Source: Stigmatella erecta (GTDB taxonomy: Bacteria; Myxococcota; Myxococcia; Myxococcales; Myxococcaceae). From it: a stretch of DNA of 64,000 bases. Positions within the stretch are counted from its first letter, which is position 1. Each line of letters opens with the position of its first letter. The stretch lies in the NCBI RefSeq assembly GCF_900111745.1, contig NZ_FOIJ01000001.1, positions 186,001 through 250,000 on the forward strand. The letters are read 5' to 3'. Shown here one piece after another: positions 39,177 to 40,166 of this stretch. The translations under genes and the position numbers were made by a program. The notes beneath the pieces were generated by a model. It had not been told where the DNA came from and made no database searches. It saw only the letters and a program-made list of their open reading frames with translations.

Positions 39177-39200
39177 CGCGGGCGTGTAACCACGCCCGCG
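39177..39200 (+). terminator. Perfect hairpin after the lipase gene
   Basis: CGCGGGCGTG (39177-39186) and CACGCCCGCG (39191-39200) form a 10-bp stem with a TAAC loop, about 57 bases after the lipase stop. The run of A residues just before it would give a T-tract on the minus strand. It therefore could act in both directions, although no minus-strand gene ends here. Confidence 0.6.
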
Positions 39201-39253
39201 GTCTTGCGTAGAACCCTTGTTCGCAGCGCGGCCCGTGCCGCAGGGAATCCGAC

Positions 39254-39886: not shown

Positions 39887-39935
39887 TCCCCCCTCCATCG
39901 AAGTCACTTCAACGCAGTCTCGAAAGGAAACACCC

Positions 39936-40166
39936 ATGAACGTCAAAGCGCTGGCCACCCTCGTTGGAGCCCTCTCTCTCGGCTCGCTCGCCACCGGCTG
40001 TGCCTCCAGCAAGGCCGCGGGCAATCCGGGAGCAGAGTCCGCCGCCAAGGGGGCCGAGGCCTCTTGCAAGGGGGCTGAATCCACCTGCAAGGGCACGAAG
40101 GCCGCCGAGACTCCGGCGAAGGGCGCCGAGGGCCAGTGTGGTGAGGGCACCTGCGGCAATAAGTAG
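39936..40166 (+). CDS. Small Cys-rich lipoprotein with EGxCGEGxCG tail (bufferin/HvfA-like candidate)
   Basis: A 76-residue low-complexity protein. The lipoprotein signal is strong (LGSLATGC, lipid Cys C22). The mature part is Ala/Gly/Lys/Glu-rich with four further Cys: C44 and C51 in SCKG and TCKG, and C68 and C73 in the terminal EGQCGEGTCGNK. The tail matches the EGxCGEGxCG pattern known from HvfA-type metal-binding peptides, whose Cys can be modified by DUF692/MNIO enzymes. No such enzyme lies in this window. AAGGAAA precedes the ATG. It follows the YceI gene by 49 bases. It could also be a simple Cys-rich metal or redox buffer without modification. Confidence 0.8.
   Translation: MNVKALATLVGALSLGSLATGCASSKAAGNPGAESAAKGAEASCKGAESTCKGTKAAETPAKGAEGQCGEGTCGNK

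Follow-up and report, generated by a model that had tools for sequence, protein, structure and literature searches.

The gene discussed here raises the question of whether a bufferin-like lipoprotein encoded apart from any MNIO gene can still be the substrate of such an enzyme. It lies in a stretch of 64 kb, hereafter the window, of a 9.2-Mb genome (G000; contigs are cited as C1, C3, C24, and C25). The best explanation, to which we assign a probability of about two in three, is that it encodes a lipidated bufferin/oxazolin-type RiPP precursor, the maturase of which is encoded elsewhere in the genome. On this best reading of the sequence, the peptide would be modified in trans and would buffer metal as part of an ECF stress response. 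The features needed for the argument are as follows:

39186..39210, forward strand: candidate ECF-type promoter GTAACC-N15-CGTA, from an alignment of the region 5' of the YceI gene, 43 bp from the YceI start codon
39254..39886, forward strand: YceI-family periplasmic protein of 210 residues with a signal peptide (Pfam PF04264, 79.6 bits, cut-off 23.7)
39913..39929, forward strand: conserved CGCAGTCTCGAAAGGAA block including the ribosome-binding site, identical 5' of the MNIO-linked sister gene
39936..40166, forward strand: putative stand-alone bufferin/oxazolin-like lipoprotein precursor of 76 residues, ATG start
39936..40001, forward strand: lipoprotein signal peptide up to the lipobox Cys22, candidate RiPP leader (identity comparison over 27 loci)
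40065..40088, forward strand: the two CKG cysteines C44 and C51, present in all three orthologues
40128..40163, forward strand: EGQCGEGTCGNK tail with C68 and C73, an exact double motif and putative modified core

The first-pass annotation had described the gene at 39936-40166 as encoding a 76-residue lipoprotein with an EGxCGEGxCG tail and two further cysteines in CKG repeats, and its open reading frame, lipobox Cys22, tail, and C44 and C51 were all verified. The protein reads MNVKALATLVGALSLGSLATGC...CKGAESTCKG...EGQCGEGTCGNK, and its remaining cysteines, C68 and C73, belong to the EGxCG motifs. It displays the basic N-region, hydrophobic core, and lipobox (LATGC, residues 18-22) of bacterial lipoproteins, the signal peptide having been called by eye, and it looks disordered. 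Profile analysis of the peptide returns no Pfam family, and the HvfA check proposed for it gives 11.7 bits with the curated model NF050188 (cut-off 95), so it is not a curated HvfA. Chance occurrence of the double EGxCG motif was rejected: with two mismatches allowed, the 9.2-Mb genome contains 8 matches versus 1 for the reversed pattern. The exact motif has 3 matches at two loci only, the window gene and an MNIO-linked sister gene. A tandem EGxCE-like repeat, differing from the EGxCG pattern at two positions, is found at C24:92768-92811 (loci L012/L013). The CKG cysteines, first taken as mere extras, prove to be more than that: KGxExSC motifs are seen repeatedly across the family, and in a relative the gene for a KGSEKSCKG-repeat peptide adjoins an MNIO gene.

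The annotation had noted that no MNIO gene lies beside the lipoprotein and had called for a genome-wide search for DUF692 and DUF2063 genes. A PF05114 profile search of the genome reports two matches only, C3:514395-515180 and C1:256971-257723, both outside the 64-kb window, which itself contains none. The search found the expected enzymes on C3, where a lipoprotein of 85 residues is followed by an MNIO of 290 residues and a DUF2063 partner. The MNIO passes the NCBIfam model MNIO_BufB, the bufferin maturase (317.6 bits, cut-off 310; 343 bits with PF05114), and the partner passes PF09836 (46.2 bits, cut-off 27.2) but remains below the HvfC equivalog model (43.4 versus 142). The sister lipoprotein, with the tail EGTCGEGQCGEGQCG, also given as EGTCGEGQCGEGQCGKKK, is likewise below its model NF050137 (14.1 bits, cut-off 19.5). 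It shares 51% identity with the window lipoprotein (E 7e-17), and the stretch containing the ribosome-binding site is identical in both genes, but the mature regions are very different. The window copy possesses two EGxCG motifs, whereas the sister copies, here and in close relatives, have three or four, and it has mid-region KGxExSC motifs that are absent from the C3 copy, the latter being richer in tail repeats. In many relatives, a 361-residue protein devoid of any Pfam match is encoded 5' of the lipoprotein-MNIO cluster (L003 9571-10656), and the stop of this L003 gene overlaps the lipoprotein start codon. The match on C1 (L004 6770-8530) is a divergent MNIO-like protein, 7 kb beyond the window end, scoring 110-113 bits with PF05114.

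Within the window, 49 bp separate the YceI stop from the lipoprotein ATG. An AlkZ-like gene follows from 40284, and lipase-like and FKBP-type genes lie 5' of the YceI gene. The adjacency to YceI first reported is correct, but the two genes are not incidental neighbours, as they belong to a YceI-lipoprotein-MNIO-DUF2063 unit in relatives. A search of 96 family genomes with the peptide matched 66 of them at E 0.01, and leaving out seven weak matches (E above 0.002) yielded 77 loci in 64 genomes, the homologues in these many relatives being of similar length. An MNIO gene is located directly 3' in 69 of the 77 loci, one locus is truncated by the end of its contig, and seven are stand-alone. Besides the window gene, the stand-alone set comprises the G036 and G038 orthologues and single loci in G041, G004, G007, and G080, and each of these seven genomes contains an MNIO-linked copy as well. 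Of the 96 genomes, 28 have a close orthologue of YceI. It is followed in each by the lipoprotein gene, after which comes an MNIO gene in 24 genomes, the end of the contig in one (G019), and no MNIO gene in three (G000, G036, and G038). YceI, lipoprotein, MNIO, and DUF2063 partner thus form one unit in 24 relatives, found intact on named contigs including those of Hyalangium versicolor, Pyxidicoccus, Citreicoccus, and Corallococcus, and the window YceI-lipoprotein pair is therefore read as a piece split off from it. In G000, G036, G037, and G038, the MNIO cluster retains its usual flanks (XRE-type and serC-like genes) and lacks YceI; on C3, the MNIO-DUF2063 pair and sister lipoprotein occupy the site held by the whole unit in relatives.

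The genes flanking the YceI-lipoprotein pair in G000 are not those flanking it in G036/G038. The pair is absent from the close relative G037, in which the lipase and AlkZ genes adjoin, and is therefore dispensable. The homologous block extends from just 5' of the promoter to approximately the lipoprotein stop codon. We infer that one lipoprotein copy moved away from the MNIO site together with YceI and the promoter. Plasmid-borne spread was rejected, with no match in the plasmid collection. The window copy is probably more ancestral in form than the C3 copy, because it keeps the KGxExSC motifs found family-wide, which the C3 copy lacks while carrying more tail repeats. A peptide with four KGSExSCKG repeats (L193 2031-2426), resembling the window CKG region, is encoded next to MNIO, DUF2063, NrsF-like, and ECF sigma genes. 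In L189-L192, Cys-rich peptides of the CKGKG or CKGQ type adjoin MNIO genes, the same sigma/NrsF pair being encoded close by, and in L189 the Cys-rich peptide gene is preceded by a GTAACT-N16-CGTA motif.

The GTAACC-N15/16-CGTA promoter 5' of YceI is conserved in relatives. Using the pattern GTAAC[CGT]-N-CGT[A/T], with a spacer of 14-17 and within 800 nt 5' of the lipoprotein, the motif is found in 27 of 28 YceI-bearing loci, the sole miss being at a contig edge: all three YceI-bearing stand-alone loci and 24 of the 25 others. Of the other stand-alone loci, 3 of 4 contain it, as do 21 of the 45 remaining MNIO loci. It occurs once in the window, at 39186..39210. The strict motif is not enriched genome-wide (4 matches versus 9 for the reversed pattern), and its weight therefore rests on its conserved position. 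One of these four strict matches is located directly 5' of msrP, itself followed by msrQ. Among 30 msrP loci fetched, 17 were readable, the 13 without the N-terminal string used for picking being left out, and in 17/17 the motif (CGTA or CGTT) precedes msrP, with 16 scoring at least 9/10. The C3 cluster did not return the motif in a one-mismatch search of 500 nt or in a search for strict forms up to 3.5 kb upstream, and enzyme and substrate may therefore not be co-expressed. The -35 element of the window promoter is embedded in a 10-bp inverted repeat, CGCGGGCGTG-TAAC-CACGCCCGCG (39177-39200), that G036 and G038 do not have.

A candidate regulator is the ECF sigma factor whose gene, C25:15897-16511, precedes that of an NrsF-like protein (26.1-27 bits, cut-off 26.8); no such motif was found at the promoter of the sigma gene itself. 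Genomes with a close orthologue of this sigma factor have the promoter motif in 49 of 54 cases, versus 0 of 9 evaluable genomes without it, an association that may mainly follow one clade rather than nine independent losses, so the count itself carries little weight. The sigma orthologue and NrsF-like gene of six relatives are located within ~2 kb of an MNIO gene. In Caulobacter, sigma-F is reported to act through GTAACC-N16-CGAA at two DUF2282-DUF692-DUF2063 operons and yedY (PMC3511200); compared with this sequence, the window promoter has an identical -35, the -10 CGTA, and a spacer of N15. CorE, a sigma factor responding to copper, was weighed as another possible regulator. The main text of the CorE paper gives AAC in the -35 and includes no GTAAC or CGTA string.

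The window gene is under purifying selection: among the three orthologues of G000, G036, and G038, dN/dS is 0.08-0.11, and all five cysteines and the EGxCGEGxCG tail are kept. Over the 27 YceI-bearing full-length loci, mean pairwise identity of the lipoprotein is 0.89 in the signal peptide versus 0.53 in the mature part. YceI from the same loci follows the reverse pattern (0.51 versus 0.80, one of the 27 signal peptides, L037, being spurious owing to a wrong start at a contig edge), and a second control lipoprotein family from the same genomes gives 0.27 versus 0.56 (n=9). Residues K4, G11, S14, L18, G21, and C22 are invariant in 76/76 full-length loci, and K4, G11, and S14 go beyond what the lipobox requires. 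Such conservation would be expected if the signal peptide also served as a RiPP leader read by the maturase. Antoine et al. suspect such reading of the signal peptide by the maturase for Buf1 (PMC12452194). The leader argument is weakened by FonBC, for which every single Ala change preceding the core is reported to be tolerated (PMC13097082).

The proposed mechanism would start in the cytoplasm, where the C3 MNIO-partner complex would recognize the common signal peptide as a leader. This complex is the most likely modifier of the EGxCG cysteines of both lipoproteins, which, perhaps together with the CKG ones, would be oxidized before Sec export, probably to 5-thiooxazoles, an assignment backed for oxazolin by PMC13419390 and PMC13097082. 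In vitro, two EGKCG repeats are reported to suffice for FonBC, which tolerates Ala, Arg, or Thr at motif position three (PMC13097082). The CKG cysteines may stay unmodified, because FonBC did not accept cores in which the Cys is followed by a charged residue. Once exported by Sec, the peptide would be anchored by Cys22 through the action of Lgt and signal peptidase II, and at the membrane it could chelate or buffer copper or another soft metal of this kind. NedA, a lipidated EGKCG peptide, is reported to be produced and modified (PMC12636315). A sigma-F/NrsF-type ECF sigma factor would drive YceI and the lipoprotein alongside the methionine sulfoxide repair operon msrPQ. The membrane-anchored substrate of a distant MNIO first suggested is thus supported in part: its main refuting condition, a genome devoid of MNIO enzymes, does not apply, as an MNIO and a DUF2063 partner are encoded beside a sister lipoprotein, but the roles given to YceI and the CKG repeats needed correction, and the peptide is not a curated HvfA. 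More tentatively, one MNIO-DUF2063 pair may serve two dispersed lipoprotein precursors via the signal-peptide leader, with the regulation of enzyme and substrate uncoupled and YceI a conserved accessory of lipidated bufferins. If so, a stress-induced substrate would be supplied to an enzyme under other control, the ECF promoter having been kept by the window precursor only.

The separation from the enzyme might also mean that the window lipoprotein is no longer part of the MNIO system and, without being modified, acts with YceI in metal binding or redox chemistry through free thiols. The missing adjacent enzyme, the reduction to two EGxCG motifs from the three or four of sister copies, the very different mature region, and a C3 cluster devoid of the common promoter are all compatible with this idea. 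We nonetheless consider it unlikely, since dN/dS is near 0.1 and none of the three orthologues has lost the tail, the invariant K4, G11, and S14 of the 76 full-length loci are not needed for the lipobox, and no genome has a stand-alone copy without an MNIO-linked one. Modification in trans by a different enzyme, for example the divergent MNIO-like protein on C1, 31 kb downstream, appears very improbable. Although this protein matches PF05114 (112.8 bits), it is below all NCBIfam MNIO cut-offs, its best score of 95.7 versus 310 being the reason for which it was rejected as the main enzyme, and no DUF2063-like gene or Cys-rich peptide was noticed alongside in the filtered ORF list of a 14-kb stretch.

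Hardly credible is a functionless, decaying duplicate. In its favour, the gene is absent from G037, where the lipase and AlkZ genes are adjacent, but a dN/dS of 0.08-0.11, the lack of stops, and the retention of all cysteines, promoter, and ribosome-binding site in three genomes despite differing neighbours argue for a working gene.

Sigma-F control has already been published, as have stand-alone precursors and EGKCG peptides with a lipid anchor. What is new here is the myxobacterial lipoprotein family, its separation from a unit that includes YceI, and the evidence on the promoter. A term search finds no 'Myxococc' in the main text of PMC12452194. The records of our literature search include no paper joining YceI with MNIO, DUF692, DUF2063, or EGKCG; a few YceI records carried only words beginning like 'bufferin', such as 'buffering'. 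The locus offers a natural test case, with one BufB-type enzyme, two precursors sharing a signal peptide, and a close relative without the second precursor, and it makes the doubling of a lipoprotein signal peptide as a RiPP leader a testable claim.

The window gene resembles the oxazolin/HvfA and Buf_EGKCG family (HvfABC, FonABC, NedABC) in its signal-peptide precursor with EGxCG repeats and in the presence of an MNIO and a DUF2063 partner in the same genome, and, like NedA, its product is a lipoprotein. Unlike these systems, it lies apart from the enzyme, travels with YceI, is below the curated HvfA cut-offs, and has added KGxExSCKG motifs. The third EGxCG position, typically Lys in HvfA and Buf_EGKCG, is Gln or Thr in the window (EGQCG and EGTCG) and Lys or Ser in the G036/G038 orthologues (EGKCG and EGSCG). 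The DAG-RiPPs DybA and lipo-NedA share the signal peptidase II lipobox on a RiPP precursor, but their genes are clustered with those of their enzymes. Closest in arrangement are the stand-alone bufferin precursors of Antoine et al. 2025, also devoid of an MNIO neighbour in genomes with an MNIO elsewhere; in the text on these precursors, their modification by distant enzymes is left open (PMC12452194). Regarding regulation, the locus is similar to the Caulobacter sigma-F/NrsF bufferins (CC3254-CC3257, CC2907-CC2905) in its candidate GTAACC-type ECF promoter, found likewise at msrP/yedY, and in the putative NrsF-type anti-sigma tied to MNIO genes in relatives. It differs from them in that the precursor is not a DUF2282 protein, the -10 is CGTA/CGTT instead of CGAA, and the promoter in this genome is located at the YceI-lipoprotein pair and not at the enzyme. 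The present reading, if correct, would carry sigma-F-type control of bufferins and msrPQ beyond Caulobacter into the myxobacteria.
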